Source: a virus. Taken from it: a DNA stretch of 23,548 bases. The position numbers and the translations under genes were made by a program. Positions 2,990 to 21,883 of this stretch are shown here, in pieces; positions within the stretch are counted from its first letter, which is position 1, and every line of letters begins with the position of its first letter. Under the pieces are notes generated by a model, which had not been told where the DNA came from, ran no database searches, and was given only the letters and a program-made list of their open reading frames with translations. The stretch lies in IMG/VR virus record IMGVR_UViG_3300011114_000125, positions 1 through 23,548 of that record; one strand, written 5' to 3'.

Positions 2990-3015
2990 GTCCAACCTTA
3001 GACAATAATTAAACA

Positions 3016-3024: not shown

Positions 3025-3025
3025 A

Positions 3026-3427: not shown

Positions 3428-3439
3428 ATGGAAATCAAA

Positions 3440-4411: not shown

Positions 4412-4418
4412 CTAAATC

Positions 4419-4466: not shown

Positions 4467-4477
4467 ACCTTAAACAC

Positions 4478-4911: not shown

Positions 4912-4925
4912 CCGCAAGGACTTGA

Positions 4926-7820
4926 ATGACTCCGCTTGAGTTTTTAGCGGTTGTTCTGCCGCCGCCAGAATTTGGTCGGTACTGCGTAGCAGAACTAACT
5001 AGGACGAAAGAGCATGTCTTTGTTGACTCGCTCGATCAGACAACAACGCCAATCAAAGGTTGGCACGATAGCAAGTTGGATGTTTACTTTGCCTTGGCTA
5101 CCTTTGGCAAGGAAGACAATCGGCAAGCTACCAACGCAAGGTATGTAAAGTCCCTGTTCATCGACATGGATGGATACGCATCGAAGAAAGATGCCGCCCT
5201 TGCGCTCAATGCGTTCTTGGAGAAGACTGGCCTTGATGCCTTGGGTACGCCCTATGTGGTGGGTTCTGGTGGCGGGTTGCACTGCTACTGGCCGCTACTC
5301 ACTGCCGTTCCTATTGATTCGTGGAAGCCGGTGGCTGAGAACTTTAAACGCCTGTGCAAGCAGGAGAACATGGCCATCGACATGACCGTGACGGCTGACG
5401 CCGCCCGAGTCTTGCGTGTGCCTGATACCACCAACTTCAAGAAGAAGTACGCAACGCCGCGCCCTGTGCGCATACTGACTGAAGGCGATGTGTTCAGCTT
5501 CGAGGGGCTGGCAACTCTCATCCGAGAGAAACTGACAGGCTCAGTATATGAGCCTGTAGCTATGCCATCACTTGACTTGCCCGGCCAGCGCCCAGCCAAG
5601 GCAACGCCCTCGGCTACGACAGTTAAGTTGTATGAGAACAGCATAACCAAGTTCAAACCTATCTGGCTTGCTACGCAGAATGGTCGTGGCTGTGGTCAGT
5701 TAGCGAACTACGTGGAGCATGCAACCGAGGACGGCATGGAGCCGATCTGGAGAGGCTTGCTGTCATGGACAAAGGTTTGTGAGGACGGCAACAAGGCGGC
5801 GGTGTGGCTAAGCAAGATGCATCCGTATGAGCCTGAGCGCATGAACCAGAAGCTGCAAAGCATCAAGGGGCCATACCCCTGCGTCAAGATGGACTCAGAG
5901 AACCCCGGAGTGTGCCAGTCGTGCTCACACTGGGGCAAGATAACCAACCCCCTGATCTTAGGGCGCGAGTTGTCTGTTGAGGTGGAAGAGAAAGAGATCG
6001 AGGTCAAGCTGACAAGTGACAGCACAGTCACTGCGAAAGAAGTCGTCAAGGTCATGCGCCCAACACCGCCACGGGGTTACGCCTACGGCACGAACGGCGG
6101 CGTGTTCATGGAGCGCACAGTAGAAGATGACGAGGGCGTCAAGTCCAAGAAGCAAGTGATGCTGTTGCCCTACGAGTTGTTCGTGGTGGACATCCTCAAT
6201 AGCAACAACGACCACACTGTGCACCTGATTGCGCTCAGACCTGAAGGGGCGATAAACGTAACCATGCCGCAGAAGGCGGTGGTCAGCAAAGACGAAACGG
6301 TGAAAGCACTGGCAAGCCAAAACATAGTGGCGGCTTTTGGTGCCAACAATGACAAAAACTTATTTGAATATGTGAGGGCATGCGTGGAAGAATCTAGCAC
6401 TAACAAAGTACCAATCAAAGTTCCCGATAGCTATGGTTGGCAACCTGACAACTCGTATGTATTTGCGGGTCGTATCTTCACTAAGGGTAAACCCCCAGTC
6501 AAAGTCCCAATGCCGGGCTTGGAGAACATCACCAAGAACACCGAGCCTCGTGGCACTATGGAGCAGTGGCGCATCTTCATAGAGATGATGATTGCCAAGA
6601 AGATGTGGGATCACCTAGCCGTTTTGCTTGCGGGTGCTGGCGCACCTTTCATGCGCTTCACAGGTATCTACGGCATGACATACCACTGTGCCAGTACCGA
6701 ATCTGGTACGGGTAAGACGCTTGCTCTGGAGGCTGCAGCATCGGTCTGGGGACACCCAACCCACTACCGCACAGGCAAGAGCACATCTCCTGTGGCTATG
6801 CAACAGCGCTTGGGTCTGCTCAACAGCCACCCGCTTATCACTGACGAGATCACATCCAAGAACCGAGACGACTTCGAGTGGTTGCCTGAGTTCCTACTGG
6901 ACATGACCGAAGGCCGTGGCAAGGAGCGTATGGAGTCTGGCTCCAACAAAGAGCGCCTGAACTTGTCAACTTGGATGACCAACGCTTTGATGTCATCTAA
7001 CACCCACATCGTGGACTACCTGACTGGTGGGCGTACCCATTCGTCTGAGGGTGAACTGCGCCGCTTGCTTGAGTTTGTGCTTGAGGACGAGTTGTCTTGG
7101 GAGCCACACGAGATTGAGATCATCAAGTCCTTGCAAGCTAACTACGCCGTGGCTGGCTACGCCCTGTCTCAGTACCTTGCGGACAATGTGGATCAGTTCC
7201 CTAAGATGGTGGGCGAAGCCGTTGCCGGTATGTACACTGAGTTCAAGGCGACCAACGATGAGCGCTTCTGGATGGCAGGGGTTGGATGCTCTATATGCGC
7301 CCTCAAAGCGTTTAAAGAGCTAGGCGTGGTGGACATACCCTATCGCCCTATTCTGAACTCCTACAAGAAGGCTGTGGACTACATGCGAGCCAGTATGAAG
7401 AGCAGTGTGCGCACCGCTGTGGATGTACTGAACTCCTACACCCGTGACAACTATGGCAGTTTCGTAGTTATTAAACCTAGCAAGGGCGGCCTCATGGCTG
7501 AACTGGGTAGCGGCAAGGACATTGACTTGACCATCACACGCAACAAGGTGTTTGGGCGGGTGGAGCATGAGCCGATCCCCAACCACATCGACTATTTCAT
7601 CGAGGAGCAACTGCTCAAGGCGTACTGTGCCACCATGAGCTTTGGATATTCATCCTTTAAGCGCCAGCTTGAACAACTGTACAACGTAGAGTATCTTAAG
7701 AAAGATATGATGGCCAAGACCAAAGGGCCACAGATGCGGGTCACAGTTATGAAAATCAGACGTGAGATTATTGAAGCCGATGAAGTACTCCTCACTGCGC
7801 CTTCCGTGGGAGAAAGTTGA
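4926..7820 (+). CDS. Primase-helicase fusion (archaeo-eukaryotic-type primase plus P-loop helicase)
   Basis: A 964-residue replication protein. The N-terminal region carries three archaeo-eukaryotic primase-type motifs: LFIDMDGY (D80 and D82), GGGLHCYW (H119) and DAARVLRVPDTTN (158-170). A small Cys cluster, C319-x10-C330-x2-C333-S-H335, may bind zinc. The C-terminal half, with a DUF927-like look, has Walker A ESGTGKT (592-598), Walker B PLITDEI (636-642), then sensor-type residues around NALMSSN and an Arg-rich GGRTHSSEGELRRLL segment. It probably primes and unwinds at the phage fork in place of separate T7-style primase and helicase domains. Start: ATG with AAGGA 5 bases upstream. The C-terminus overlaps the next small gene by 41 bases in another frame. 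Confidence 0.88.
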   Translation: MTPLEFLAVVLPPPEFGRYCVAELTRTKEHVFVDSLDQTTTPIKGWHDSKLDVYFALATFGKEDNRQATNARYVKSLFIDMDGYASKKDAALALNAFLEKTGLDALGTPYVVGSGGGLHCYWPLLTAVPIDSWKPVAENFKRLCKQENMAIDMTVTADAARVLRVPDTTNFKKKYATPRPVRILTEGDVFSFEGLATLIREKLTGSVYEPVAMPSLDLPGQRPAKATPSATTVKLYENSITKFKPIWLATQNGRGCGQLANYVEHATEDGMEPIWRGLLSWTKVCEDGNKAAVWLSKMHPYEPERMNQKLQSIKGPYPCVKMDSENPGVCQSCSHWGKITNPLILGRELSVEVEEKEIEVKLTSDSTVTAKEVVKVMRPTPPRGYAYGTNGGVFMERTVEDDEGVKSKKQVMLLPYELFVVDILNSNNDHTVHLIALRPEGAINVTMPQKAVVSKDETVKALASQNIVAAFGANNDKNLFEYVRACVEESSTNKVPIKVPDSYGWQPDNSYVFAGRIFTKGKPPVKVPMPGLENITKNTEPRGTMEQWRIFIEMMIAKKMWDHLAVLLAGAGAPFMRFTGIYGMTYHCASTESGTGKTLALEAAASVWGHPTHYRTGKSTSPVAMQQRLGLLNSHPLITDEITSKNRDDFEWLPEFLLDMTEGRGKERMESGSNKERLNLSTWMTNALMSSNTHIVDYLTGGRTHSSEGELRRLLEFVLEDELSWEPHEIEIIKSLQANYAVAGYALSQYLADNVDQFPKMVGEAVAGMYTEFKATNDERFWMAGVGCSICALKAFKELGVVDIPYRPILNSYKKAVDYMRASMKSSVRTAVDVLNSYTRDNYGSFVVIKPSKGGLMAELGSGKDIDLTITRNKVFGRVEHEPIPNHIDYFIEEQLLKAYCATMSFGYSSFKRQLEQLYNVEYLKKDMMAKTKGPQMRVTVMKIRREIIEADEVLLTAPSVGES

Positions 7821-7986
7821 GAAAGGGCAGGGGTTCTTTGTCCCCTGCCTAGACACCGAAGCCATGAAAGAGTGGGGCTTGAAGAAAGCTTTTTCTCTCA
7901 GAATACTAGATGCCCACGCTAGCGTGGGCATCCTTAACGGCAAGCTAGGTGTTATGTTTTACCGGAAGCCTCAATCCGTTTCATAG
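7780..7986 (+). CDS. Small conserved-type phage protein, function unknown
   Basis: A 68-residue protein from ATG 7780; a GTG at 7762 in the same frame would give 74 residues. No strong Shine-Dalgarno is visible, but the start lies inside the end of the primase-helicase gene, allowing coupled translation. It opens with a patch reading LRLPWEKVEKGQGFFVPCLD and ends in GKLGVMFYRKP, a short beta-rich pattern I recognise loosely from small hypothetical phage proteins. No catalytic motif is evident. Two oddities weaken the call: a perfect 24-bp palindrome lies within it (codons for DAHASVGI), and its last 35 bases overlap the giant gene on the other strand. Real but unassigned is the best reading. 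Confidence 0.6.
   Translation: MKYSSLRLPWEKVEKGQGFFVPCLDTEAMKEWGLKKAFSLRILDAHASVGILNGKLGVMFYRKPQSVS
7909..7932. terminator. Perfect 24-bp palindrome, candidate bidirectional terminator
   Basis: GATGCCCACG (7909-7918), CTAG, then CGTGGGCATC (7923-7932) form a GC-rich 10-bp stem with a 4-base loop. It lies between the convergent operons: 20 bases past the giant gene's stop when read on the - strand, and near the end of the last + gene. The flanking T-tracts are weak (CCTTAA on +, TAGTATTCT on -), so termination may be partial. Being an exact DNA palindrome, it could instead bind a protein dimer. Confidence 0.55.
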
Positions 7987-10900
7987 CTTTCTCAAACTTG
8001 TCCGCCACATCTTGGCGTGCCGCATCGATTTTATCTAGCCTTGCACGTTTCTCAGCCCCTGTCATGTTCTTCATGTTATTGATGCGGTCAACATCAGTGC
8101 GAAGCTTACCCATGACGTTTTGGTAGTTACGTGCTAAAGCTGCTGATGCAACTAAAGCCCGGTTGTCTTCTAAGAAATCCCTAGCTTCCTGCCCCTGACC
8201 TTTCTTTCGCATGTCGTCAAAGGTAGCCTTGGCTTGCATAGATTCGCTTGCCATGCGGTACATAACATCAGAATCAGCACCCCCGTATTTCTTTTGGAAT
8301 GAACTGCCAATGAACGGCAAGTCTGAGACACGCTTCTCAGCAGGTTCGCCACGAGTTTTTTTACGGAACAAACCATCAGCCGCGCCCATAACAATCAAAG
8401 GCAACTGACCAAAGTAACCTGTGGCAAGGTGTTCAATCTGCACAGGAGAAAATCCGGGCAACACTTTGCTCAACATCTTAGCCGCTTCGGTCGTAGTTTC
8501 AGAAAACCGCTGTTGTGGCGACAGCTTCTCCATACGCGCCGATTCAATAGCTGAGTCGTTAAAAAAGCGCTTGTTGCTGTAGACCTCAAACGCGGGTTTA
8601 AAAATCTGCGGCACACCTCTGGAACTGTAGCCCGGCACTGACTGTAAGAACATGTCACGCAGAGCTTCCAACTGCTGGACGCCATCAACTTCAGCTTTCA
8701 TAGCGTCAGATGCGGCAACAGCCAAGGAAAAGAACCAACCAGCCTCGTAAGGGATAGGCAGCTTCAATGGCTCGTCAACGCCCGGTAAGTGCAGGAAGAA
8801 GTTAGTGTAACGATCCTTTGGTTTAGCGTTCTTGTAGTACTCGTCATCGTCCATAGCCATGGCGTAGACAATACCTGTAGCCACCAACAGCAATGCGTTG
8901 TTAAAAAACTTCTGCTGAATCTGCATCTGTTCTTCAAACGGCATCTGGCCACGGGCTGCTTTGTACAACACGTTCAAGCCTTGGATCTGCGCATTAAAGA
9001 ACGGAATCAAACGGCTGGCGTACTGCACTGTGGGTGACAGACCGCGCTTGTAAAAGTTCATTGACTCGCGTACAGCCAAGTCAGCTTCCACTTCAGACAG
9101 TCCGTTTCTACGTGCGTTTTCATACACCAGCGCACGGGTGGCAGCATCAGCACGCATTGCGTAACGGTCTGTTGCGGCAAACACTTTATCCAAAACGCTC
9201 TGGTCTTTACCGCTTGCCAACTGCAAAGCCATTTTAGCAACGTCGTCTGGGTCACCAGTGAAGATGCCACTCTGGATCAGACCCTTTTTAATCATCTCTT
9301 CGTTGATCGGGCTTTGTCCACGGCTGGAAGCTACAAACTCTTTACCAGCTTTGACCACCGCTGTCAGGGGGTTGTAGTCCAGACCACCCGTAAACGCTGC
9401 GGCCATTGGGTCACGAACCAACTGACGCGCAATATAGATTGGCATGCGAGTCACGCCAGAGCGCAAGATGTCACCAGCAATACCGCCAATCTTCAAGAAC
9501 GCGGGAAGCGTCAGGTGAGCGCCCTCCAAGCTCTTCACAATTAACTCGGCAGGGATACCGCCCATGACGGTGTCACTAGTTTTAACTCGTAGCCAACGCT
9601 CGCCCTTGTCGTCTGGTTTGTCGGGATTAGGCTCTTGGTTAAAGCGAATAACGTCTGGGGACGCGGGGCCCATACCAATATGGATAGGCATAGCGCTAGT
9701 CGGCTTGCCGTCTTTGCCCACAGGCCCCTTACCTTCGCCAATCTTTTGGAACGCATACGCTAGATTCTTGGTAGCCAAGTTTGTCAGCGCCTTGTCCATG
9801 ATGAGCAAGGAATTGCGTTGCAGTGTTTCGGTGATTGGTAAAATGCGAGTCTCACCGCCCACTAGTTCTTTCAGGTACGGCTGACGACGAATGTCGCCAA
9901 TCGTTACAGTCACCTCATCGCTAAACACCAATTGCGCCATACCATTCTCGTTGACACGATAGAACGGTATGAAGTCACCCTCTTTCAGCAGTCTGTCAGC
10001 TTCAGCTTTGGTAATAGCGCCGGTTGATGCCAAGAACTTAATCTGGCCTTCGTTGTACGCGTTGTATGCAGAACGGGTTGCTTCCAGTGCATTTTTAAGT
10101 TTAGAGTCGGCGTTGGCTGCGGCAAGCGCGGCTTTAAGTTTTTCCTCTGTTACACCAAGAGCACCTAGGTCTAGCTTGGCCACGCCCTTGTTCATTGCAC
10201 GTTGGGCAATCATGTAGGTGGTAGCTATGTTGGCTTTGGCTTCTGGATCACCCATTGGGATGTCTGCAACAGACTTGAACACATCAAGCGCGTTATCCTT
10301 GTCAATAGACCTGACACCTTTAAAACCTTTTTCGTCGGTGTACAACTCCATCGGCCCCTTTTGGAGCGAAGCATTTAACATTGCCATCTTCTGGTCGGCC
10401 ATGACAATGTGTGACATAGCCTGAGTAAACAGCATGTCGTCGCCAATCTCTTTGGCGCCAGCTTTCAAAGCTTCGCGCAAACCAGCGCGCATATCAACCA
10501 ACTCCATTTCAGCTTGAAGAAATGGCTTAGTGCCAAGTTGTTCTTTCCAAGTTTTCTTCTTGGACATGATGTCTTTGGCCAAGTCAACCAACGCATTCTC
10601 CTCACCATACTGCGCAGCCCGTGCGTAACGTGGCGTCTCTTCTGGCTCGATCATCTCCAGTACTGGTGGTTGGTCAGCTATGCGGTTGGGGATATCAACA
10701 GTTCCAAGCTGGCTTCTGCTGTCAATAAGCTTTTCTTCTGGCGCAACAGTTTCAATGTCAAAAGCGGCGTTTACTTTCTTGGCAATTTTAAAAATGTCTG
10801 CTTTTGGAGAAGCATGTTTTGCCTCCAACTCTTCTCGCACGCTTGCCAACCACTCATACATATTTCCCGCAGTTCTGTCTTCGCTAGTGTCAAACTCACC

Positions 10901-13900
10901 AAAGTCAAGACCATCCGCGTAATCAACAGCACTTTGACCTAACGCTTCTTTTGTGGCGTTACGCAACGTTTTAACAATATCGTTGTCAGCGTCAGCTTTA
11001 ATATTTTTTATGCCGTATTGTTTTTGAAGCTCTTGCATAAGCCCAAAAAACTGCATGGAGTTTCCGTCAGCAACAGCACGCTCACGCGCTTTAGGGGTCA
11101 TCTCAGGCGCGTAAATAGTATCCGGTAAAGACAAATCAAGCGCAGTAAAGTTGGCGTTAACTGAAATTTTGTTAACAACCGTTGCGTTTTTAATTGTGGC
11201 GTTTAGCCTACCGGGGGTGGTCTCCAAGCTGTCGCCAGTTTCAATACGGTTAATTACCGCGTTGTCTGCCAGTACCAACATTGGTTTGGTTTTGTCTTTT
11301 CCGCTAAATCTAATTAGATCAATGTTTTTAACTTTTGGTAAACGAACAACCGTATCACCAGAAACCGAAACTTCGTTTACTGATTCTAAATTTGGTAAAT
11401 ATGCGTCACCGCCTATAAAAAGAATACTGTCGACGGTGCGTACATTGTCGGCAGGAACTTCAAATCTATTACCTCGTAGTTCGTAATTAAATTGGTTAAG
11501 TGCAAAGTAACCGCGGATGCCGGGGAAGTGGCCTTCTTTTGTGGCGGCTTCTGTTGATTCACCTAATTTTTTACCTACAGCGTCGACTAAAGCATCGGTT
11601 GGATCTGGGCGTGCTACAAAATTTTCGCCATCTATGGCAGAAAAATTTAACAATCGACGTACATCGTATGTATGAGCATCGCCGGTTGAATCGTCTAGAT
11701 AAGAACCTAGCTTCATCAAAAACGGCACATCAAAAGCTTTCTCGCCTTTTAATATGCTTGTCAGCGCTTGTTTGCGCTCTAGCGTTTCAATAAATCTTTC
11801 GGAACCTGTAAAGTTTTTACTAGACAAAAAGTCTTTGGCAATCAGTTCTTGCTCATTTGTAAGACCTTGAGACTCTGTGTTGCCACGAACTTCACCAACA
11901 TCAGTTTTACCGTTCATACGAACTGCAACTGATGGGCTTCCGTTCTTGTAGTAAATGTAAAAGTCGCCTTGCTCAATCTGATTCTTAGCAGTCTGTACAG
12001 AACTGCCTGTACACCAAGACGTGTTTGCGGCTCCAGCGTTTAATTCTTCCGCTGCTTTTTGAATGTCTTTTGCGTTTGCGTAAATTTCGGTGTAGTAAGA
12101 ATCTAAAAACTTTGCGGTCTCGTCAATTGTTGTTAGTTTTGGTTCGCCTTCAACTTCTAAACGGGCGTTCTCCAGTTGAAGCAAATCCGCTTGCTCGTTT
12201 GTAAGTTTTAAAACGCGAACTGCATTGGGCTTAACTTCTTCATCAAATAAATCCGCAAATGTACGTGGGCGGGCTTCCCCGGCGTTTACAGCATTTGCTA
12301 TTTGCCGAAGTTGTTCGCCAAGATTAACAGGGCGTGCTGGTACACGAACAGGGCGTGCCAGTACACGACCGGCTCTTACAGGGCCTCTTCGTGCGCCTCT
12401 TTCAAAAATTTCTTTTTCCCAAATTGCTTGAAGTTCTGCCGAAAGTTCTGCGCGGTCAACGGGCTGTCCGTTTCTTTCAAACAAGTTGGGGTTGTCTGCG
12501 CGTTTCATTTCAAAACGCATACCGCTAAACGTCATGTCTTCTGGCGTCATCAAACGCACACGCACTTCTGGTCGCTCAGGCAATAGGTGTTGGTCAAACT
12601 TTTGCCAGCCGTCTTTCTTAGCGTTGTTTTCTGCGTTGCGGTCAGCCATTTCCTGCATGCCTGCAAGGAACGCTTGCTTGAGTGGTAAACCTTCACGCAA
12701 CTTACGAATGACTTCGCCCGCGTCTTTGCTACTAATAAACGCCAAATTGTGCGTATTGTCTTTACCAATCTCGGCAAGTTTCAAACGTCCTGTTTTGTCT
12801 GACAGCACAGCATACTTAGATGCGGCCTTAGCCACCAGCGCTTGTTCAACGTATGTGTATTCAGGCGTATTTAAAAGGTCGTAGACAAGTCCGCGCAAAT
12901 CTTCTCTGCGTTTGTCTGTAGTTTCTTTGGCTAATATAGCACCCAGATTGCTGCCTTCTTTTATGGCCAAACTAAGATATGTTTGTGCGTCAGCCTCTAC
13001 ATAGTGCAGTGGGTTGTTTTCGTCAAACGGTTTGCCGTCCGACATAACCACTTTGGTGTTTTTTGACAGCTTGTCCTCATCAACACCGCTTATGTACTGC
13101 GAGGGGTACAGCCCCATGTTATCAAGCATGGTTTTACCGATCCGATCAGCATCTTCTGCTGTACGGTCTTTCTGCTTGATCTCGGGGCCAAACTGCTCGG
13201 CAAACTGCTTCATCGAGTTACTACCGGTAGCTAACGCGGCAATGTCTTTCTGTGCCAGCTTACGGGATACCGTTCGCTCAACGCCTGCAGTGCGCACACT
13301 GGATGGAATCATCAACGCATCAACAGACTGAAGTGCTGCACCAAACATAGTCTCTGGACGCTCCACACCCAACAAGCGCATGATGATGCTTTTGAAGCCA
13401 GCCCATGCGTCAGACAGACGCCACTTCTTACCTTGCAGTTGTTGCTGTAAGGTGCGGTTGGACATGACTTCAGCGGCAAACTCGGACAGACTACCTTTGG
13501 CAGATGCGCTGGTAATCTTTGGATCGTTCTTGACAGCCGCATACAATGCTTGCAACTCACGCTTGGCAACAAGTTGTTGCTTGGTCAGCTTGCTTTCGTC
13601 CATCTGCAACACGCGCTCAACTGCGGCGTGTGTGCCTTCGTGCAACAGAATCTCTTGTGACAAACCGCCGTTGCGGCTCAAACTAATACGGCGGCTAGTA
13701 GCGGAACCCAGCACGGCTTTGCCGTTCTCGTCTGTTACTTGGCTCTGAATCGACACACTGGTGTCGTCAAGCATATCTGCTAGGCGTTGTGCCACGGCAC
13801 GGTTGACCTGCGATGTAGCAGGGTCGTTGGCCATGTCAATAAAGGCGGCGCGCAAATCGTTGTCCTCCAACGCACGTACTTGTGCCGCTGTCAGGTCTGG

Positions 13901-16900
13901 ACTTGTTGACTCTACGCCTCGGGCGTACTCTTCGTTTTCTCGTGGGTTGTACACATCTTCCATAGCAGAAGTCTTGCGAGTATCTTCGCCATAAACTTCT
14001 TCTTCAGTTATCTTACGTGGGCGGCCACGAGGTTTAGGTTCAGGCGCTTCTACTTCTTCAGCCACTATTGATGTGTCGTTGCGATACATCTTACGCATTT
14101 GCTCTACCAGCTCACGCTTGACCGCCGCCAATTCTTTGGTAAAGCTCTTGATTTCGGCATCAAGATTGGTTATCTCTTGCTCAGAAGGAAGCGCAACTGT
14201 CTCTCTGTAATCTTTACGAGTTATTCTGTTTTTCTGTAACTTTAGTCTTTCTTGAATGGCTTTAAAACGCTCAAGTTCTTTTGTAGATTCGTCCAGCTTG
14301 GTTGTAAGTTCAGCTTCACGTCTTTCAAGGATGTACTGGAACTCGGCTTGGCGCTCAGCTTCAATTGCTGCTTCTTGCGCAGTAGTCAACTCTTTCTGGC
14401 CAGCCCGAATCTTTTCTGCATAAGCGTTGGCTTCTGCCACGGCTTGCTTGACTGTTGGAGACTTAATAGTGCGCTGCTCAACCAACGGCTGTCTGACAGA
14501 ACCGACATTACGTTTGGACTCGGCTGTACCTGTACGGAACTTGGCAGGGGCACTGGTAGTTTGACGGGCACCAGCCGACACACGGCCTTGCAAGGCAACA
14601 GCAAGTCTAGCTTTGTCTTCTGTGCCTGTAGAGATTTCGGTATTGACCGCGTCAATTTGATTATTCAAACGTTCAACTGTCTTGGTCTTGCTATCTCTAA
14701 TGGCATCGTCGCGCTGAATTGTCAGGGCAGCTAAGCGGTCTGTGGCTTTGCCCAACTCCTGTACCTGATCGATGTACTGGTCGAGTGTGTCCTGCTCTTC
14801 AATGCTTGCGGCACGAACTTCTGGCTCAGCACCAAGTGTTTTTCTAAGCGGCACATTACGCGCACGCATAAAGTTAATAGCGTTTTCAAGTGTCTCTTTG
14901 CGCACAGACAGGCGGCTTTGCAAACGAATAGCCGCACCCATACCTTTAAACGCCTGTACGTTTTGTTCGCCCCCAACATACGAACCGGACTTCTTTCTAG
15001 CAGCAGTGACCTTAGTCGCGGCCTCAGTTAATTGTTTGTCAATGTTGCCAAGCTCAAGAACCAACGATAACAGGGGCTTGTTGTACAGATCATTTTTGTA
15101 TTTGACTTCACTGGCAGCATCGGCTGTTAGCCCACGTTCACGGGCATCTTGTTCGGCAGCGCTAAGCGCGCGGACTTGCACACTTTTTTCCGCTTTGTAT
15201 AAATCGTAGGTAGGGTATGTGCGTAAAAATGCCGCACCTGTATCTGGGTCTGCTGCACTTTTTTTGTAGGTAGCTTCTGATCGATCCCCAAAACCAGACA
15301 TCGCCACGTTCCAACGGCGGGCACGTTCGTCAGATATTTGTTGCTCCAACTGTTGTACGGAACCAACTTTAGCGCCTTTTACAGCCTGCGCCTTGTCTGC
15401 GGCAGTTTGGCGTTCTTTAGTTTCGGCTTCGCCAACTTCAGCTTGTGCTGTGCGCACGGCATCTTGTAAGCGTTTGATCTCATCTTGAGCAGCAGCGTTG
15501 GATTTAGCTAGCGGATCAGTAGTAGCTTTGAGTTCAGCCAAACGCTGCTCACCCACCAGCACTTTGATCTGCGTACGTATTAAATCCAAAGCGCCTTTAG
15601 TCTGAACAAGTTCTGCTTTGGCTTCTTGGTAAAGCGCCAACAAGTCGTCTAACTCTTTAAACAACTTAATCTCTACTGCGCCGCCTTTGGCACGCACGCC
15701 AACGCGGTTAGATTCTTTAATCAGGTCGTCTTTAGCCTGCTCGTACGCCCTAATACGTCCGTTTATGTCACTGACAGCTAGCTTCAGATTATTCATCTTC
15801 AGCACCATGTTCTCAGTGTTAGTCTGGAACGCGGTCAACTCTTGGTTTTCTTTTAAGAACTTAGTCCAGTTCTTGATCTTGCTCATGCGGGCAGTGGTGG
15901 CTTTGCTGTCTTTCAGCATCTGCTTTAGGCGCGGCAACGCCCTGCTCAGGAACGCACGGACTGGGGCCAAGTCTTTCTCAGACTGCTTCATGTCTTGCTT
16001 GAGCCTGCGAACATATGGGCTATTGATAAAGCGCTGGAACGTTTCTACGTCAGGTCTAGCACCAATGTCTAGGCTTGGGCCAGCTTCAATACCGCGGCGT
16101 TCAGCTTTCTGTACACGGCTACGCTCATCGGCTGCGCCAAACAAAGGCAGTTGACCAGCTTGCTCATCCCGAACAGTCTCAGATAAACGGACTAATGGCT
16201 CCAACTCAGCCTGTAAAGACAGCGGCACAGCTTCAACGCCTTTGCCGCGTATGGTGCCTGACACCAGTTTGCGTTTGCCCGTAACAGGGTCTATACGGTA
16301 AACAGGCTCGTTAATATCTTGCCCACGTTTCTCAACCTTAGCTCTGCCGGGCACACCCTGTGTGCGCTTGTCTTCTTCTGGCTGGGCTACAAAGCCGGGC
16401 AACTTGCCGGGTTTGCCTGTACGCTCCAGACGCTCACGCTGAGCAAACATCTCAGTCTGAGATACAGACGCGGCTTGTCCGGGGACAACCCCAGTAATAC
16501 TATCAACATCTTTCTTAAATTCTTTTGTTGGCGTTGTGGTGCTGACCTGCGCTTGTGTTTGTTTTGTTGGCGGGAAGGTCTGAAGGTTTACGGGACGGCC
16601 AGCGCCTTTGCGCGGCACGCCCTCTGCTCCGCTCTCAATCTTCGTCAACTGCTGGTCAAGTAGTGTGAGGAAGCCCTGCGACTCCGAGACATTCTGGCGT
16701 GTGCCTTGATCTGTAACCTCAGACGTAGCTTGCTTGAGCGTCGTGTCTGCTTGGGGTATCACTTGCTCTGCACGGCGCAAGAACGCCTCGGCTTCTGGAG
16801 ATAAGTCAAACACAGACAAAGCGCGGTTGATACGGCCTTTTAAATTCTCAGGCGTTATGGGGGCGCCAGACTTCTCAGAGCGTGGGTACAGACGGAACTC

Positions 16901-18979
16901 TTTTGCTGGCTCACGCGTAACAACGCGCTTAGCTTCTTCTGCAGGCACAACTTCTTCGGCTGTAGGCAACGTGCCTTTTTCTAAGGGTATACCCTGTAAG
17001 CGTTGTTGTAGCTGGCCAAATGCGGCAGACGACGTTGGCGGCGCTTCTTTGTTTCCAAATAACCCCAAGTTCTCAGTCATTGGAGAAGGCGCACGTTTTA
17101 TACGCTGTAGTGCCTGCATCTCAGGCGTCATACGTTCACGCAGTGCGGCATCTTCTGCGGCACGGGCTTCAGCCGCACGGCTAGCTTCAATGGTAGCCTG
17201 TTCCTGTTCTTCCAACACACCAAGACGTTGCTGATTAGGTTGTGCTGTTTTAGCCGCTTTTTGCAGGCGCATTTCTTCTAACTGCAGATTCAACCCGCCA
17301 TACACTATCTCTTCTGCTTTTTTCTGTGCGATTGCTTGTTTTTCTAAATCTTTACGTGGCGCTACCAAAAGTGGTAATGGTGTACGTGTTTTTACTAACT
17401 GCCCTGCCATGTACGGATCAGCCATCAAGTAATCTATGTAGACACTTAAGTCTTGTTTCTTAGTGTCTTTTTCAGTGGCCATAGCCACACGCTCTGGCAC
17501 TTGCTGTTTAGCCAAACCAATACGATCTTGTGCGTACTTTGCCGCGTCCGTTGGTGGTGTTGCAAAGGGGTCTTCAGCGCCCACTTCTGTAGGCGTAATC
17601 CTTTGTTTGCCTGAAATTTGTTTTTGTTGCGCAGCTTGCTCAAGTGCGTACTCTTCGGGCGACATACCAGATACGCGCTGTTCTTCTCTAGCCGCTAAAA
17701 TTCTAGGCTTGAGCGTGTTCCACTCTTTAATCAACGCCTTGGTTTCGTCTGAATTACGTAAATCTTTTTTAGCTTTTTGGGCTTCTTTTTTAGCGGCTTC
17801 AGCGGCAATATCGCCTTCCGCTACGGTGACATTGCTTGCAATATCAAAATCTCTAATTTGTTTTTTAACGGCTTCCAAGCGGCTATCTACGTCTAGCGCA
17901 TACTGAGGGCTGTTCTTTTTAATCTCTTCAGCTTTGGCAAGTGCTTCAGCTTCTTGCGTGGCTTGCAGTCTAGCTGCGGCTTTTGTTTGCTTATCGCGTT
18001 CAGTATCGTCTGCTTTAATCTGCGTACGGGCGGCAGACTTGTCAGCAAACCGGCCAGCACCGCCTAGCAAACCTAACTTGGACACTTCAAAGGCTGTATT
18101 GCCATAGTCGGCAAAAGCTTCTTCGTCGAACAATGATTGACCAGCTTGCGCACGCTGAAGAAACTGTTGTGTTACTTCGGTTGGGATTTCAAACGCAACG
18201 CCTTTAGCTGTACCTTTACCCAAGGTTTTGAGGAAGCCTTCGTCTGCCAACTTAGCAGCGGCAAGCTTTTCGGCTTCGGCAGTAGCGCCTCTTGTCAGTA
18301 ACTTTTCAATGTTGGGGCCAAAGATGGCTTTGGCAATGCTGCGACCCATAGGGATCAGCATGGTGGCTACGTCCAAGCCAGCGGCGGGGATTGCAAACGC
18401 GGCGGCTTTAAAACGATTGACGTTTACAGGCTCACCTTTTTTGCGTTGCTCTTCGGCTTGGGCTTCTAAAAAATCACCATATTGTTGGGCAAATGATGGG
18501 CCAAATGCGCCAGCCAAAGCACCGTAAGGACTCTTTGTGGCAATACCAGCGGCTCTAGCTGCGGCTGCGGACTCTGCAATTTGAGGCGCTTGCTGCGCTA
18601 AAGCGTTGGGAATTTGGCGAAGGTACTCGCCAATAGCTGATGGTAAACCTTTTTCTTCGTACGCTTTGGTAACTTCTGTCCAGCCGGGCTGTTCGCCGTA
18701 GCTTGCTTTGATGGCTTTCTGACGCTCAATACCAGCTTCAGCAGCTTCGTTTCCACCTGTTAAAGATGCTAGACCTGTGCGCTGTGACGAAAAAAGCTGT
18801 TCTGCACCCTGCCCAACACTTTCAAAAAAACCGGGACGTTTCTTTGCTTTTTCTTCCTCTTTTACACCACCAAAAGCTTCAGGATACATGCGTTGCGCGC
18901 GTTCCCATGTCTGTGCAGGCGTTTCGCCCTCGCGGATTGCTACTGTTGAACCGTCGGGTAGAGGAAGAACTTTTGCCAT
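7952..18979 (-). CDS. Giant polyvalent virion/ejection protein (3675 aa) with metallopeptidase, WCTG and LPD38-like domains
   Basis: One uninterrupted frame. Residues 1-40 (opening MAKVLPLPDGSTVA, then YPEAFGG) resemble a short N-terminal module common on phage virion proteins. Residues 40-320 are amphipathic and Ala/Gly-rich. Coiled coils fill roughly 985-1205 and 1490-1635. An AT-hook (RGRPRK) lies at 1651-1656. HEGTH at 1780-1784 plus E1833 or E1837 forms a gluzincin-type zinc site. WCTG at 2322-2325 starts an uncharacterised domain with GDFYIYY and GEVRGN (2362-2367), then a beta-solenoid-like part (2501-2622). The C-terminus matches LPD38-type domains: DRYAMRADAATR (from 3271), LIPFFNAQ (from 3324), and a hydrophobic helix near 3360-3376. 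Such polyvalent proteins are thought to be packaged and injected with phage DNA. A weak GGTG precedes ATG. Virion placement is inferred, not shown. Confidence 0.85.
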   Translation of the reverse strand: MAKVLPLPDGSTVAIREGETPAQTWERAQRMYPEAFGGVKEEEKAKKRPGFFESVGQGAEQLFSSQRTGLASLTGGNEAAEAGIERQKAIKASYGEQPGWTEVTKAYEEKGLPSAIGEYLRQIPNALAQQAPQIAESAAAARAAGIATKSPYGALAGAFGPSFAQQYGDFLEAQAEEQRKKGEPVNVNRFKAAAFAIPAAGLDVATMLIPMGRSIAKAIFGPNIEKLLTRGATAEAEKLAAAKLADEGFLKTLGKGTAKGVAFEIPTEVTQQFLQRAQAGQSLFDEEAFADYGNTAFEVSKLGLLGGAGRFADKSAARTQIKADDTERDKQTKAAARLQATQEAEALAKAEEIKKNSPQYALDVDSRLEAVKKQIRDFDIASNVTVAEGDIAAEAAKKEAQKAKKDLRNSDETKALIKEWNTLKPRILAAREEQRVSGMSPEEYALEQAAQQKQISGKQRITPTEVGAEDPFATPPTDAAKYAQDRIGLAKQQVPERVAMATEKDTKKQDLSVYIDYLMADPYMAGQLVKTRTPLPLLVAPRKDLEKQAIAQKKAEEIVYGGLNLQLEEMRLQKAAKTAQPNQQRLGVLEEQEQATIEASRAAEARAAEDAALRERMTPEMQALQRIKRAPSPMTENLGLFGNKEAPPTSSAAFGQLQQRLQGIPLEKGTLPTAEEVVPAEEAKRVVTREPAKEFRLYPRSEKSGAPITPENLKGRINRALSVFDLSPEAEAFLRRAEQVIPQADTTLKQATSEVTDQGTRQNVSESQGFLTLLDQQLTKIESGAEGVPRKGAGRPVNLQTFPPTKQTQAQVSTTTPTKEFKKDVDSITGVVPGQAASVSQTEMFAQRERLERTGKPGKLPGFVAQPEEDKRTQGVPGRAKVEKRGQDINEPVYRIDPVTGKRKLVSGTIRGKGVEAVPLSLQAELEPLVRLSETVRDEQAGQLPLFGAADERSRVQKAERRGIEAGPSLDIGARPDVETFQRFINSPYVRRLKQDMKQSEKDLAPVRAFLSRALPRLKQMLKDSKATTARMSKIKNWTKFLKENQELTAFQTNTENMVLKMNNLKLAVSDINGRIRAYEQAKDDLIKESNRVGVRAKGGAVEIKLFKELDDLLALYQEAKAELVQTKGALDLIRTQIKVLVGEQRLAELKATTDPLAKSNAAAQDEIKRLQDAVRTAQAEVGEAETKERQTAADKAQAVKGAKVGSVQQLEQQISDERARRWNVAMSGFGDRSEATYKKSAADPDTGAAFLRTYPTYDLYKAEKSVQVRALSAAEQDARERGLTADAASEVKYKNDLYNKPLLSLVLELGNIDKQLTEAATKVTAARKKSGSYVGGEQNVQAFKGMGAAIRLQSRLSVRKETLENAINFMRARNVPLRKTLGAEPEVRAASIEEQDTLDQYIDQVQELGKATDRLAALTIQRDDAIRDSKTKTVERLNNQIDAVNTEISTGTEDKARLAVALQGRVSAGARQTTSAPAKFRTGTAESKRNVGSVRQPLVEQRTIKSPTVKQAVAEANAYAEKIRAGQKELTTAQEAAIEAERQAEFQYILERREAELTTKLDESTKELERFKAIQERLKLQKNRITRKDYRETVALPSEQEITNLDAEIKSFTKELAAVKRELVEQMRKMYRNDTSIVAEEVEAPEPKPRGRPRKITEEEVYGEDTRKTSAMEDVYNPRENEEYARGVESTSPDLTAAQVRALEDNDLRAAFIDMANDPATSQVNRAVAQRLADMLDDTSVSIQSQVTDENGKAVLGSATSRRISLSRNGGLSQEILLHEGTHAAVERVLQMDESKLTKQQLVAKRELQALYAAVKNDPKITSASAKGSLSEFAAEVMSNRTLQQQLQGKKWRLSDAWAGFKSIIMRLLGVERPETMFGAALQSVDALMIPSSVRTAGVERTVSRKLAQKDIAALATGSNSMKQFAEQFGPEIKQKDRTAEDADRIGKTMLDNMGLYPSQYISGVDEDKLSKNTKVVMSDGKPFDENNPLHYVEADAQTYLSLAIKEGSNLGAILAKETTDKRREDLRGLVYDLLNTPEYTYVEQALVAKAASKYAVLSDKTGRLKLAEIGKDNTHNLAFISSKDAGEVIRKLREGLPLKQAFLAGMQEMADRNAENNAKKDGWQKFDQHLLPERPEVRVRLMTPEDMTFSGMRFEMKRADNPNLFERNGQPVDRAELSAELQAIWEKEIFERGARRGPVRAGRVLARPVRVPARPVNLGEQLRQIANAVNAGEARPRTFADLFDEEVKPNAVRVLKLTNEQADLLQLENARLEVEGEPKLTTIDETAKFLDSYYTEIYANAKDIQKAAEELNAGAANTSWCTGSSVQTAKNQIEQGDFYIYYKNGSPSVAVRMNGKTDVGEVRGNTESQGLTNEQELIAKDFLSSKNFTGSERFIETLERKQALTSILKGEKAFDVPFLMKLGSYLDDSTGDAHTYDVRRLLNFSAIDGENFVARPDPTDALVDAVGKKLGESTEAATKEGHFPGIRGYFALNQFNYELRGNRFEVPADNVRTVDSILFIGGDAYLPNLESVNEVSVSGDTVVRLPKVKNIDLIRFSGKDKTKPMLVLADNAVINRIETGDSLETTPGRLNATIKNATVVNKISVNANFTALDLSLPDTIYAPEMTPKARERAVADGNSMQFFGLMQELQKQYGIKNIKADADNDIVKTLRNATKEALGQSAVDYADGLDFGEFDTSEDRTAGNMYEWLASVREELEAKHASPKADIFKIAKKVNAAFDIETVAPEEKLIDSRSQLGTVDIPNRIADQPPVLEMIEPEETPRYARAAQYGEENALVDLAKDIMSKKKTWKEQLGTKPFLQAEMELVDMRAGLREALKAGAKEIGDDMLFTQAMSHIVMADQKMAMLNASLQKGPMELYTDEKGFKGVRSIDKDNALDVFKSVADIPMGDPEAKANIATTYMIAQRAMNKGVAKLDLGALGVTEEKLKAALAAANADSKLKNALEATRSAYNAYNEGQIKFLASTGAITKAEADRLLKEGDFIPFYRVNENGMAQLVFSDEVTVTIGDIRRQPYLKELVGGETRILPITETLQRNSLLIMDKALTNLATKNLAYAFQKIGEGKGPVGKDGKPTSAMPIHIGMGPASPDVIRFNQEPNPDKPDDKGERWLRVKTSDTVMGGIPAELIVKSLEGAHLTLPAFLKIGGIAGDILRSGVTRMPIYIARQLVRDPMAAAFTGGLDYNPLTAVVKAGKEFVASSRGQSPINEEMIKKGLIQSGIFTGDPDDVAKMALQLASGKDQSVLDKVFAATDRYAMRADAATRALVYENARRNGLSEVEADLAVRESMNFYKRGLSPTVQYASRLIPFFNAQIQGLNVLYKAARGQMPFEEQMQIQQKFFNNALLLVATGIVYAMAMDDDEYYKNAKPKDRYTNFFLHLPGVDEPLKLPIPYEAGWFFSLAVAASDAMKAEVDGVQQLEALRDMFLQSVPGYSSRGVPQIFKPAFEVYSNKRFFNDSAIESARMEKLSPQQRFSETTTEAAKMLSKVLPGFSPVQIEHLATGYFGQLPLIVMGAADGLFRKKTRGEPAEKRVSDLPFIGSSFQKKYGGADSDVMYRMASESMQAKATFDDMRKKGQGQEARDFLEDNRALVASAALARNYQNVMGKLRTDVDRINNMKNMTGAEKRARLDKIDAARQDVADKFEKAMKRIEASGKT
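11110..12110 (-). other. WCTG domain plus beta-solenoid-like section inside the giant gene
   Basis: Residues about 2290-2622 of the giant protein. The sequence NTSWCTGSSVQTAK, then GDFYIYYKNGSPSVAVRMNG and GEVRGN, recalls a domain of unknown function seen in hypothetical proteins of phages and uncultured bacteria, often followed by leucine-rich or solenoid repeats. Here it is followed by short strands with repeating valines and leucines (VPADNVRTVDSILFIGG, YLPNLESVNEV, VVRLPKVKNIDLI), which look like solenoid turns. Several 60-base lines here are only 28-40% G+C by my hand count, against about 48% in a sampled line of the C-terminal part. The identification is from memory of the family pattern. 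Confidence 0.5.
12326..12367 (-). repeat. Tandem 21-bp repeat, two copies, in the giant gene
   Basis: Copy 1 (12326-12346) and copy 2 (12347-12367) differ at 2 of 21 bases (CTGG versus CCAG in the middle). A third, degenerate copy may follow near 12368-12385. Read on the - strand the repeat keeps frame and encodes a Pro/Arg/Val/Ala linker, RVLARPV then RVPARPV (residues about 2205-2218). It marks the linker just before the WCTG section. Confidence 0.8.
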
Positions 18980-19004: not shown

Positions 19005-19034
19005 AAAAACAGGGGTGGCGCCGTACCACCCCTG
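19005..19034 (-). terminator. Intrinsic terminator upstream of the giant gene
   Basis: On the - strand, CAGGGGTGG (19034-19026), loop TACGGCG, then CCACCCCTG (19018-19010) make a perfect 9-bp GC-rich stem followed by TTTTT (19009-19005) and CT. It follows the stop of the 595-aa gene by 15 bases and ends 25 bases before the giant gene's ATG. Too little room remains for a promoter after it, so the giant gene probably depends on read-through or on a promoter inside the upstream gene; the terminator would then lower its dose. Confidence 0.85.
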
Positions 19035-19049
19035 CTGTAGATTATGCCA

Positions 19050-20837
19050 TTACTGGCGGTCAGGTTTGCCTTCAATAGCTCCGGGAACACCTTTTTCTAG
19101 TGCTTGAATTGTCTTCATTTGTTTCACAAACTGTTCAGGCGTTAGTGGAGGGTTTATAGTTGTGTCTTTTCCAGCGGTAGCCGTTACGTAGGCTTCGTAA
19201 GCTTGTGTCATTGTTTTTTTACCCGCTTGAATTTCGGTGGCCAAACGATAGCCTTTTTCAATATCGCCACCACCCAACAATCGGTACAAAGCTTGTGGGC
19301 TACCCGCACCAGCAGCGCGCTCTCTGGAAGCATTTTCTAAACGTACGCGTTCGTCGGCAGAAGAAAGCTCAAGTATCTTGGTGGCTTGGGCGGCATTGAC
19401 ATCGTAGGCTTTCATCGTTCCAGCCAGCGCATCTTTCTTACCTTGGATGACAGTCCTGTTAATGTCGTCCTGTGCAGCACGGCGCTCTTTGTCAGTCATA
19501 TTGGTTTCGTTGCGGCGGTACTCTTCAATCTGATCGCGTGCATCGTCGACCTTTTCTTTAGCAGCCAACAGGCGCTGTTTGCCAGCAGCATAAGATGCCA
19601 CGCCAGATTTAGCGCCTTCAGCAATACCCGTCAATCCGGGGCCACGGCTGGTCATCATGCCCAGACCCGCTTCAAGTAAAGCCAAACCTGTATTGCGTTC
19701 ATCTTCTTTACCAAGGCGTGCTTCACGTTCAGCCAAACGGCCTTCCTTGCCTTTAAAAGCTTCGCCACGGGCGGTAATACTTTTCTCAAGCGCCGCACTA
19801 CGCTCCAATGCTGCGGCTTTTTCTTCTGCTGCAATCTCGCCTTGCTGTGTAGAGAATGGGTTTTTAACATCCGCAGGAGAGCCCATCAACGTGTCTAAGC
19901 GTTTGCGGTAGCCTTCAGCCGTAGTTGGGTAATCTCCGGCCACTTTGCTAGATGCTTGACCTGCAGAGTCAATAATTTTCTTAACTGCGGCAGTTGAGCC
20001 GGGCATATCAACAGGAGGATTTTCAAAGCCGGACTTTACGCCGGGGAAGTCTTTAGCGCGTGTAGCTGTATTTGATGGGTACTTTGCTTCTGTTGCTGCC
20101 TTATCGCCTGCTTTAACTTTTTCGTCGTTGTATAGTTTTATTTCGTCAGGCGTAGCAATACCTTTGTTAATACGATATGCAATTTCGCTTAGCGCTGCTT
20201 GCTTTTTTTGTTCCCCCATGTAATCTGTAAACATTTCCCACGGCTTCTTATTCTCAGGAGAACCCTCTTGCGTAAACTCAGCGCGGGGTTGTACAGCTTG
20301 AAAATTAGGAATGTCACCAATCAAACTGCCGTCACCGCCTTTAGCTTTAGGAATGCCTTGATAACGTGGAATATGACCGCCACCAGACATACGCATCACA
20401 CCACCACCGTCTTGGGCGTAGTTGAACATGCCGCCCGTGTTGCCCATATTGTCTAGGCGTTGTGTTGTAACAGGTGCGTTGGTGCTTTCGTCAAAGCCTG
20501 CAATACCGCCATCAGCCAAGTGCCGCATGTTGGGTGCAGGGATACGCGCTATGCCTTGGTTTTCTGGTAACTGTGTTTGAGCCATTACAGGTGCAGGAGC
20601 CATCCCTGCAATGTCCTGATCTACAACCGTGGGTTGCTGTCCGGGATTTCCCTGTGCCGCCAAGCGCAAAGCTTTGCGGCGGTTTGACTCTGCGTTGGCC
20701 AGCGACACAATATATATGTCGTTTTTGTGCATGCGTGCGTAGTCCTGCAACGCGGAGTCAGGTTGAAGCTTAGCCAGCGTCTGAGTAATCAGATCGGCGT
20801 CAGGTGTGCCAATAGGAGTTTGTTGTGTAAAAGCCAT
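19050..20837 (-). CDS. Putative internal virion or ejection protein (595 aa)
   Basis: A 595-residue protein of no named family I can assign. The first 75 residues are helical and charged (DYARMHKNDIYIVSLANAE). A glycine-rich linker follows with HLADGGIAGF (106-115) and GGGVMRMSGGGHIPRY (about 148-163). Residues about 335-480 are a long charged helical region, interrupted by a hydrophobic Gly-rich patch, LALLEAGLGMMTSRGPGLTG (about 386-405), of a type seen in phage internal virion proteins. The C-terminal 80 residues are ordinary globular. No enzyme motif is visible. RBS: AGGAT from the tail of the upstream gene, 7 bases before ATG. The gene is packed 2 bases behind its neighbour and followed by an intrinsic terminator, so it closes a three-gene transcript that ends before the giant. 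Confidence 0.75.
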   Translation of the reverse strand: MAFTQQTPIGTPDADLITQTLAKLQPDSALQDYARMHKNDIYIVSLANAESNRRKALRLAAQGNPGQQPTVVDQDIAGMAPAPVMAQTQLPENQGIARIPAPNMRHLADGGIAGFDESTNAPVTTQRLDNMGNTGGMFNYAQDGGGVMRMSGGGHIPRYQGIPKAKGGDGSLIGDIPNFQAVQPRAEFTQEGSPENKKPWEMFTDYMGEQKKQAALSEIAYRINKGIATPDEIKLYNDEKVKAGDKAATEAKYPSNTATRAKDFPGVKSGFENPPVDMPGSTAAVKKIIDSAGQASSKVAGDYPTTAEGYRKRLDTLMGSPADVKNPFSTQQGEIAAEEKAAALERSAALEKSITARGEAFKGKEGRLAEREARLGKEDERNTGLALLEAGLGMMTSRGPGLTGIAEGAKSGVASYAAGKQRLLAAKEKVDDARDQIEEYRRNETNMTDKERRAAQDDINRTVIQGKKDALAGTMKAYDVNAAQATKILELSSADERVRLENASRERAAGAGSPQALYRLLGGGDIEKGYRLATEIQAGKKTMTQAYEAYVTATAGKDTTINPPLTPEQFVKQMKTIQALEKGVPGAIEGKPDRQ

Positions 20838-20839
20838 GT

Positions 20840-21883
20840 TTAATCCTGACCCATTCTATAAATAGCTAACTCAGCCAAACCAGCAGGACGATCACCAACG
20901 GATCCGCCTTCCGCAAACATACCTAGCTTGCTTGCTCCAATTGCCGCCGTGCCCAAACCCGCCGCCTGAGACAACATTGAAGGGGGTGTCTGGTATATAG
21001 ATGAAGACTGCTGAGTCAATGGCAAGCCGCGCAGAATGTCGGACATGAAGCCCATCTGTTTGTATGGCGAGTTCTGGTAATTCAGGAAGTCCTGATACTG
21101 ATTGTTCAGAATGTTCTGTTGTTGCTGTTGTTGCTGCAAACCATACTGGTTCTGCATCTGGTTGATGCCCATGTTCTGCTGGTACTGAGTGTTACCCAAC
21201 TGACCCAAAGCATTTGCGCCTGTCAGCGCTGTTTGTAGACCTTGAAGTCCCAAGCCTGCGCCAAACTGGCCTTGTTGTGCATTAAGGTTAGCCGCCGCTT
21301 GAGTAGCCCCCTGCTCTTGGTTGAACTGCCCCATGCCTTGGGTATACGCGGCTTGCTGGCCTTGTGCGTAAATATCACCTAATTGACGGTTTAAATTGCC
21401 CCTAGCTTGGCCACGCATCAGATAGTCACCACTACCCCCAAACGCGCCTGCACGGGCGGCTTGGGCACCTTGGGCTTGACTGGCAATAGCCGCTTGACGC
21501 GTTGCATCTTGCTGTTGGCGTGCCACCACATTGTTCATGTAGGGCGACATGTAGCTCTCGGCCATGCCGGGGCTTGTAAACGATTTAGTTTGGAATGGGT
21601 TGTATGTATACCCAGTATTGAGCGCACCCAAGCCAGCGGAACCCGCCATAGCCGTTGCATCTTGCAACTGGGGAGAACCCTGCATCAATGCCGCATTGTC
21701 ATAGGACATCTGCTGTAAAGGCGCAAACTGCGCTTGACGCTCACCCATGTACTGCTGATATGGGTTCTGTGAAGGGTCAGTGTAGCTTTGCGCGGCGCCC
21801 AGCAGGTTTTCGACATACGGCTTGGCGTAGTCGGGGATTGAGGTTTGCGATATTTGCTGTTGCGAGAGTTGTGGTTCAGCCAT
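20840..21883 (-). CDS. Gln-rich putative DNA-transfer/virion protein (347 aa)
   Basis: A 347-residue, Gln-, Ala- and Gly-rich protein. N-terminal residues 1-60 include SIPDYAKPYVENLLGAAQ and a Tyr/Gln-rich stretch. The middle has a helical part with ARAGAFGGSGDYLMRGQ (about 143-159), a signature I associate with small DNA-transfer or tail-associated proteins of podoviruses. A poly-Gln run of seven lies at residues 250-256. The C-terminus reads LGMFAEGGSVGDRPAGLAELAIYRM, again with the acidic-GG motif shared by its neighbours. There is no signal peptide; a short hydrophobic run (AAGLGTAAIGAS) may be membrane-active. RBS AAGGA lies about 9 bases before ATG. It sits 10 bases from the upstream gene, in one operon. 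A structural role is likely; the exact one is unknown. Confidence 0.75.
   Translation of the reverse strand: MAEPQLSQQQISQTSIPDYAKPYVENLLGAAQSYTDPSQNPYQQYMGERQAQFAPLQQMSYDNAALMQGSPQLQDATAMAGSAGLGALNTGYTYNPFQTKSFTSPGMAESYMSPYMNNVVARQQQDATRQAAIASQAQGAQAARAGAFGGSGDYLMRGQARGNLNRQLGDIYAQGQQAAYTQGMGQFNQEQGATQAAANLNAQQGQFGAGLGLQGLQTALTGANALGQLGNTQYQQNMGINQMQNQYGLQQQQQQQNILNNQYQDFLNYQNSPYKQMGFMSDILRGLPLTQQSSSIYQTPPSMLSQAAGLGTAAIGASKLGMFAEGGSVGDRPAGLAELAIYRMGQD
21116..21136 (-). repeat. CAG/CAA codon run encoding seven glutamines
   Basis: On the + strand this reads as alternating CTG and TTG triplets; on the coding strand it gives seven Gln codons mixing CAG and CAA. Such a run can expand or contract by slippage, so the length of this linker may vary between relatives. 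Confidence 0.85.

Follow-up and report, generated by a model that had tools for sequence, protein, structure and literature searches.

What is encoded by the 11-kb open frame of the virus record IMGVR_UViG_3300011114_000125, and what might so large a product do during infection? The window analyzed here is that entire record, 23,548 bases from an environmental sample and possibly a fragment. The frame runs on the minus strand from position 18979 to 7952, comprises exactly 3,675 codons, and encodes a protein of 3675 residues, P0001; plus-strand frame 1 across the same interval (7952–18979) is full of stops. A preliminary description of the DNA had noted the frame and proposed a polyvalent protein injected with the phage genome, carrying long coiled coils, an AT-hook, a HEGTH motif with a downstream Glu, a WCTG domain, a solenoid-like part, and an LPD38-like end. 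On our reading P0001 is likely the largest ejection protein of a probably short-tailed phage and at the same time a polyvalent effector, whose zincin-like domain, WCTG domain, and solenoid would be the cargo. This reading is carried by the computed frame and its conservation, the LPD38 match, an HExxH signature with downstream Glu, the homology of the WCTG core, and gene order.

A profile scan of viral contigs with an alignment of residues 1660–2200 returned 46 loci, a few of which derive from near-identical contigs. Complete frames of 2,799–3,681 codons (stop to stop) are present at 35 loci, and 11 frames exceed the sequenced stretch; with so many related long frames, that of P0001 is not a product of chance, and the single frame noted in the preliminary description stands, on the minus strand. 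Depending on the part of the protein used as query, scans returned 9, 19, or 46 loci, on overlapping viral contigs. In one relative (G001), the giant gene lies within a late operon, and G001 also has terminase, portal, and head-protein matches. Searches against phages gave no match, either by megablast with window positions 1–12000 or by tblastn with residues 1–1826 (E up to 1e-5), and PDB sequence searches with four alignments returned nothing at E < 0.5. Mean identity to distant relatives, taken in 25-residue blocks, is 9–30% over residues 1–325, 0–21% over 326–1675, 43–72% over 1676–1950 (lower, mostly still high, up to 2130), 36–57% over 2301–2400, and 11–64% over 2801–3675.

The only convincing Pfam match of P0001 is to LPD38 (PF18857) at residues 3379–3557 (8309..8845 of the minus strand, to which all features of the protein given below belong). 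With E 8.2e-26 and a score of 91.7 bits, where the family cut-off is 27, this segment belongs to the family, as the preliminary description had supposed. It forms part of a longer helical C-terminal region (residues 2790–3675, 7955..10612) recognized by tblastn, profile comparison, modeling, and Foldseek. Residues 3145–3661 match two PHROGs without an assigned function, 18222 and 9854, and tblastn of residues 994–3675 against phages yielded 137 records at less than 60% identity, the best 40 of which fall within 2966–3668. Compared by Foldseek with predicted viral proteins, the C-terminal model has 56 matches at or below E 0.001, and large polyvalent protein is the name given to 16 among the best 50; VIA structural rows for the same model mostly cover the last helices. 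In profile comparison, the C-terminus of P0001 matches the last 923 residues of gp69 from Burkholderia phage JC1 (probability 97.4, 695 columns, pairwise E 1e-11), which is described as DarB-like, a giant virion protein that resembles Bcep22 gp75 (PMC9144972).

The zincin-like domain (residues 1695–1890, 13310..13897) is defined by conservation, an AlphaFold2 model, and structural alignment. Its two motifs are HEGTH at residues 1780–1784 (13628..13642) and LSEFAAE at 1831–1837 (13469..13489), the latter bearing the predicted third zinc ligand; both the motif and the downstream Glu had been noted in the preliminary description. HExxH is found at 45 of 46 loci, the remaining locus ending before the motif position, and the two His, the Glu between them, and the downstream Glu are invariant across a 42-row alignment. 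The AlphaFold2 model predicts, over its residues 30–146, a helix, three strands, the HExxH helix, a further helix, and the Glu-bearing helix, with a predicted local distance difference test score (pLDDT) of ~80. Zincins lead the structural alignments of this part to solved chains (lethal factor, Z 7.3; PPEP-3, Z 6.3) and the zincin part of N4 gp50 aligns with it at Z 6.3 over 140 residues, values at which, with this tool, a Z below 8 may mean a mere common arrangement; for these matches, as for the VIA rows of the C-terminal model, a family missing from the listing does not count against it. With the cargo model, Foldseek found 14 matches at E up to 0.001 among viral models, several named polyvalent or virion proteins, and 79 matches in the PDB, none of them at E up to 0.001. 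The chances that the zincin is active as a peptidase are about even. Ten isolate proteins with a matching C-terminal region were compared: four, two of them closely alike, have an HExxH 1,000–1,056 residues from the C-terminal end, and six are without HExxH. A more distant relative of 3,851 codons occurs on a 52-kb viral contig (L224, frame from ~4182), with HETTH at residue 899 and WCTG at 1285.

Beyond the zincin-like domain, a conserved helical region (residues 1891–2170, 12470..13309), evident from block conservation and profile alignment, precedes the WCTG domain (residues 2296–2460, 11600..12094), which was delimited by profile comparison and conservation. The motif itself lies at residues 2322–2325 (12005..12016). 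WCT is present at 44 of 46 loci; of the other two, one ends before the motif and one (L072) is without it. The WCTG residues are invariant in 30 phage rows. The solenoid-like part is retained as an AlphaFold2 prediction, its strands forming a putative β-solenoid at ~2484–2617 (11129..11530) with pLDDT of at least 92 in 9 of 13 ten-residue blocks. In L072, both the WCTG domain and the solenoid are absent, and the post-zincin region joins the C-terminal region directly. The distance from HExxH to the C-terminal end is 1,123 residues in L072, versus 1,649–1,893 in the other 34 of 35 complete relatives, a difference that an inserted cassette would explain. The comparison suggests that the cassette between zincin and LPD38 is exchangeable. 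With E up to 1 allowed, neither phage nor plasmid sequences gave a tblastn match to residues 1880–2640.

When bacterial genomes were searched with a profile restricted to the WCTG domain, 204 relatives were recognized in 315 candidate stretches; the best 80, representing 78 loci, were used. The titles of these 80 name Patescibacteria groups, uncultured Bacilli, Tenericutes, Erysipelotrichaceae, Firmicutes, and Clostridia. A WCT frame was obtained for 76 of the 78 loci (at least 500 codons in 67); HExxH occurs in none of these 76 frames, and LPD38 in none of eight proteins scanned. Alignment of 27 bacterial with 42 phage rows by hhalign gives probability 99.8 over 255 columns, corresponding to P0001 residues ~2009–2460. 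The upstream half alone (the second half of the 1891–2170 region against the bacterial N-terminal part) is collinear but not significant (probability 0.6), so that the WCTG core is the certain homologous part. Homologues of this core stand alone as proteins of small-genome bacteria, namely Patescibacteria and uncultured gut Bacilli. In the bacterial proteins, a helical N-terminal part is followed by the core and then, in four of nine printed sequences, by repeats that look solenoid-like by eye; phage and bacterial solenoids are alike in position and, for those four, in look, the likeness being by eye only. Pfam and NCBIfam place no family above cut-off in the N-terminal part or WCTG core of eight bacterial proteins, and the tails vary (DUF4116 repeats in L163, a DUF3153 match in L152). 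The family is patchy: of 97 genomes belonging to the same order as one Bacilli genome, 15 have it, and of 145 sharing a phylum with one Patescibacteria genome, 11 do, seeds included. Neighboring genes at five bacterial loci are mostly housekeeping-like by eye, with a reverse-transcriptase-like fragment near one (L135). As a whole, this unnamed family (L098–L175) combines a constant head with varying repeat tails, and two of seven genomes searched have two copies.

Residues invariant in both the 30 phage and 27 bacterial rows include W-C-T, G-D-F, A-x-R, E-x-R-G, and a Gln. As judged from their conservation, they look like an active site, and an enzymatic WCTG domain is a possibility a little short of an even bet. 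Structural alignment of the domain gives many GNAT rows (Z 4.2–5.6 over 81–105 residues, split around an insertion), and a GNAT fold is a lead only, drawn from the model. The resemblance to PcfJ (PF14284) is by eye: Pfam finds no PcfJ match in 15 phage members, eight bacterial proteins, or the window. Profile comparison with 17 PcfJ loci gives probabilities of 1.3 and 0.2, which are not significant, with the best alignments collinear over the WC-to-RG stretch; smaller sets (two and four sequences) do no better, and a viral Foldseek row named PcfJ-like stands at rank 37 (E 0.28, probability 0.08).

These conserved parts bear on the strongest rival explanation, which gives P0001 a structural role only, in ejection or as a tunnel, and takes the zincin and WCTG domains for degenerate spacer or virion-scaffold folds, inactive in the host. 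The late-operon position in G001 and a middle that varies in length and sequence are in keeping with such a protein, as are the T7 and P22 ejection proteins, described in passages of PMC8954989 without cargo of this kind. A mere spacer is at odds with the conservation pattern, the zincin (43–72%) and WCTG (36–57%) parts being among the best conserved, versus 0–21% in the middle, and with the invariance of the zincin residues in 42 rows and of the WCTG residues in 30; we consider a purely structural role unlikely.

The middle in question (residues 331–1640, 14060..17989) is weakly conserved beyond the close clade. Between residues 981 and 1640 it contains 6% Pro and Gly together and 32% charged residues, a composition that fits helices, as far as the long coiled coils of the preliminary description are concerned, but is no proof of coiled coils. 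The AT-hook-like PRGRPRK is indeed present at residues 1650–1656 (14012..14032), but occurs in 6 of 46 loci, all close relatives, and was ruled out as a defining part because it is confined to that clade.

The ejection side of the proposal rests in part on the N-terminus. The first 45 residues (18845..18979) form a tag of the LPDG...YPEAFG type that is exchanged between near-identical relatives, and residues 46–330 (17990..18844) form a region recognized by alignment and hydropathy whose sequence suggests helices. Hydropathy over 19 residues reaches at least 1.3 at 190–212 and again at 3357–3377. In ungapped counts against one relative (L031), the window is identical at 19 of the first 40 amino acids and at 2002 of 2050 beyond the tag; at the DNA level, 5802 of 6000 bases agree beyond the tag, 70 of 132 inside it, and 10 of 60 upstream. 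Tag and preceding bases therefore appear to have been swapped as one unit. Patterns of our own making sort the 39 relatives whose start could be read into three tag types (14, 9, and 15 members), with one relative of another kind. The second of these (type b, taken from L038) matches 14 phage records by tblastn, representing 11 distinct phages, at 62.5–70.8% identity (E 2e-4 to 4e-3). In each of four records inspected, the match begins at codon 7 or 8 of a gene that stands third in a set of three neighbors and is the largest of them; the products (636–724 amino acids) are named injection or DNA-transfer proteins in three cases and unnamed in one. A note in the record of one of these phages, Emek, likens the protein at its N-terminus to that of one phage and at its C-terminus to that of another. 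For type b, in 9 of 39 relatives, the tag is thus common to relatives of P0001 and the largest injection protein of P22-like phages. If this reading is true, a short N-terminal tag common to unrelated phages is a possible loading or ejection signal.

Upstream on the strand of P0001 lie a gene for a 595-residue protein (19050..20837), one for a 347-residue protein (20840..21883), and a bigger frame that is open at the contig end. The 347-residue product matches PHROG 4287, "DNA ejection protein" (E 3.6e-13), and is the sole upstream neighbor with an ejection-family match; the 595-residue protein, directly upstream of P0001, is by position the counterpart of a middle ejection gene, and its scan against PHROGs gave no informative match. 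The order of ejection-protein PHROG, 595-residue protein, and giant protein resembles that in JC1, N4, and P22-like phages, and by position P0001 is the largest of three adjacent ejection genes, as is P22 gp16. Between the 595-residue gene and the giant gene lies a strong hairpin (19009–19035, minus strand) that, with its run of T, resembles a terminator. It is seen together with the tag family of the window in four members (P0001, L032, L033, and L052), the last of which has paired changes, and weaker candidates occur in two more of 39 upstream stretches examined.

This hairpin, which precedes the gene in the close clade, means that expression of the giant gene may differ from that of other late genes. 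This would suit an unpackaged intracellular effector or assembly factor, with LPD38 as a host-side domain. We find this improbable, since JC1 gp69, which has the same C-terminal region, is in virions and an ejection-protein PHROG lies two genes upstream of P0001. An ejected protein remains the better account: by comparison with JC1 gp69, the tag type, and gene order, P0001 is probably present in virions.

Genes of the opposite direction (177–7820) include those for an SNF2-type helicase, a PD-(D/E)XK nuclease, and a DUF927 protein. Within this early-looking module, the gene at 3026–3427 has PHROG 13900, "minor head protein", as its best match, a label that could be wrong, with weak Mu Gam-like and Gp157 matches. 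In G001, several adjacent genes of ~290 codons (35991–40508) have a common glycine-rich VEYLVVAGGG part and differing N-termini, like tail-fiber paralogues.

We propose that P0001 would be loaded into the head and exit through the tail with its two smaller neighbors, and that it would help DNA across the envelope, like T7 gp16, P22 gp16, and N4 gp50. The N-terminal tag and hydrophobic region may serve loading, exit, or membrane passage, and the helical LPD38 end may have a conserved delivery or DNA-entry role. Between these ends would sit the exchangeable cargo, acting in the host: the zincin may act on P0001 itself, cleaving it once it is loaded or has entered, or its target may be a host protein; the WCTG domain together with the β-solenoid would probably work as an enzyme-like head with a recognition tail. 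Delivery of P0001 into the host with the DNA, by analogy with characterized ejection proteins, is highly probable, and to that extent the injection suggested in the preliminary description holds by comparison (LPD38, zincin signature, gene order, JC1 gp69, and the tag type of relatives). That the zincin releases the cassette is a tentative suggestion. It is doubtful, though worth stating, that with the WCTG domain and solenoid the phage injects its own form of a cellular system of bacteria, a constant enzyme-like head with a variable repeat tail for recognition, freed by the zincin and used against or replacing host members, with the tags as a portable loading or ejection address. If the overall reading is right, giant ejection proteins have a delivery chassis formed by their two ends and exchangeable cargo in between, which would therefore be readable by comparing relatives; a phage-injected protein would thereby be tied to an unnamed family of Patescibacteria and gut Bacilli.

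Several observations weigh against this proposal. Searched by tblastn against phages, neither the window's own tag nor the third tag type finds a match, and the tag argument therefore applies to P0001 by position only. The C-terminal model is modest (pLDDT 66), and Pfam zincin models gave no match; we claim no Pfam family membership for this domain. The structural Z values of P0001 models are all below 8, which is weak alone, yet motif and element order agree with a zincin. The short tail is probable by analogy, tail shape being deduced from comparisons, and rank 22 of the C-terminal Foldseek search is an LPD38 polyvalent protein from a "Siphoviridae" assembly, so LPD38 need not imply a short tail. 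Among ten late proteins of G001 scanned, one matches PHROG 10775, "tail protein", and one has a weak "baseplate wedge subunit" row. Among the terminase matches listed, HTVC027P is the closest cultured Pelagibacter phage; it has a 1,342-residue protein (gp85) at a similar position, which was rejected as an LPD38 relative for want of detectable similarity. The late region of this phage (L243) also has a gene annotated as co-chaperone GroES (11415–11882).

An ordinary tape-measure protein of a long-tailed phage, which great length, the late operon, the G001 "tail protein" match, and one weak, so-named Foldseek match to the cargo model (E 3e-3, rank 19, probability 0.16) might recall, is very improbable and was rejected, since no tape-measure family in Pfam or PHROGs matches any part of P0001, the ten late G001 proteins scanned include no match to a tail-tube, sheath, or tape-measure family, and LPD38, zincin, and WCTG parts are present.

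As the largest member of an ejection set with polyvalent cargo, P0001 can be set beside several known systems. JC1 gp69 is likewise a large late gene following two smaller virion genes, with an LPD38 end and an HExxH 1,051 residues from its C-terminal end. Passages of its report credit it with 51 unique peptides in CsCl-purified virions, second by score, and also list gp67 and gp68, the genes preceding it, as virion proteins (PMC9144972). Unlike P0001, in which Pfam finds none of them, gp69 is described there with methylase/helicase-type, lytic-transglycosylase-like, and LPD3 parts; P0001 has the WCTG motif, and gp69 is without WC[TVS]. Assignment of P0001 as a DarB methylase-helicase was rejected, Pfam showing neither a methylase nor a helicase match.

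The virion RNA polymerase of N4, gp50, is described in parts of a preprint as a protein of ~3,500 residues with a nanodisc-inserted N-terminal part, an HExxH part, and a large helical C-terminal end (PMC12633501). P0001 is similar in size, in its HExxH part and helical C-terminal end, and in the position of its gene after two ejection genes. By hhalign, the C-terminal (C2) regions have no detectable similarity (probability 0.3), and the zincin profile match is weak (probability 16). An N4-type RNA polymerase was rejected: even with E values as high as 1 allowed, neither Pfam nor PHROGs shows an RNA polymerase family, and C2 is unmatched.

Like P0001 by position, gp16 of P22-like phages is the product of the largest gene in an ejection set of three, at the third place; its tag resembles that of 9 of 39 relatives, P0001 itself bearing another type. 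P22 gp16 is ejected, according to passages of two sources (PMC10883804, PMC8402733), and ejection proteins are described as mosaic in part of a third (PMC8954989). The bacterial WCTG proteins have the same succession of helical N-terminal part and WCTG core and, unlike P0001, neither HExxH (76 frames) nor LPD38 (eight proteins scanned).

Phage polyvalent proteins provide the closest precedent for the domain combination. LPD38 and a zincin-like peptidase in a single chain, in a late-gene neighborhood, are already known from them, in the sections of Iyer 2017 available (PMC5512222). Such proteins combine at least two unrelated domains of the polyvalent set, as P0001 does with LPD38 and the zincin-like domain, and their virion late-gene neighborhood is paralleled by PHROG 4287 two genes upstream and by portal and terminase in G001. 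The domain order, which the preliminary description could not place, is therefore in part familiar, zincin followed by LPD38 being known from other phages. No protein with the WCTG cassette was met in the portions of the literature searched, those of Iyer 2017 included; its position between zincin and LPD38, together with its bacterial relatives, appears new.
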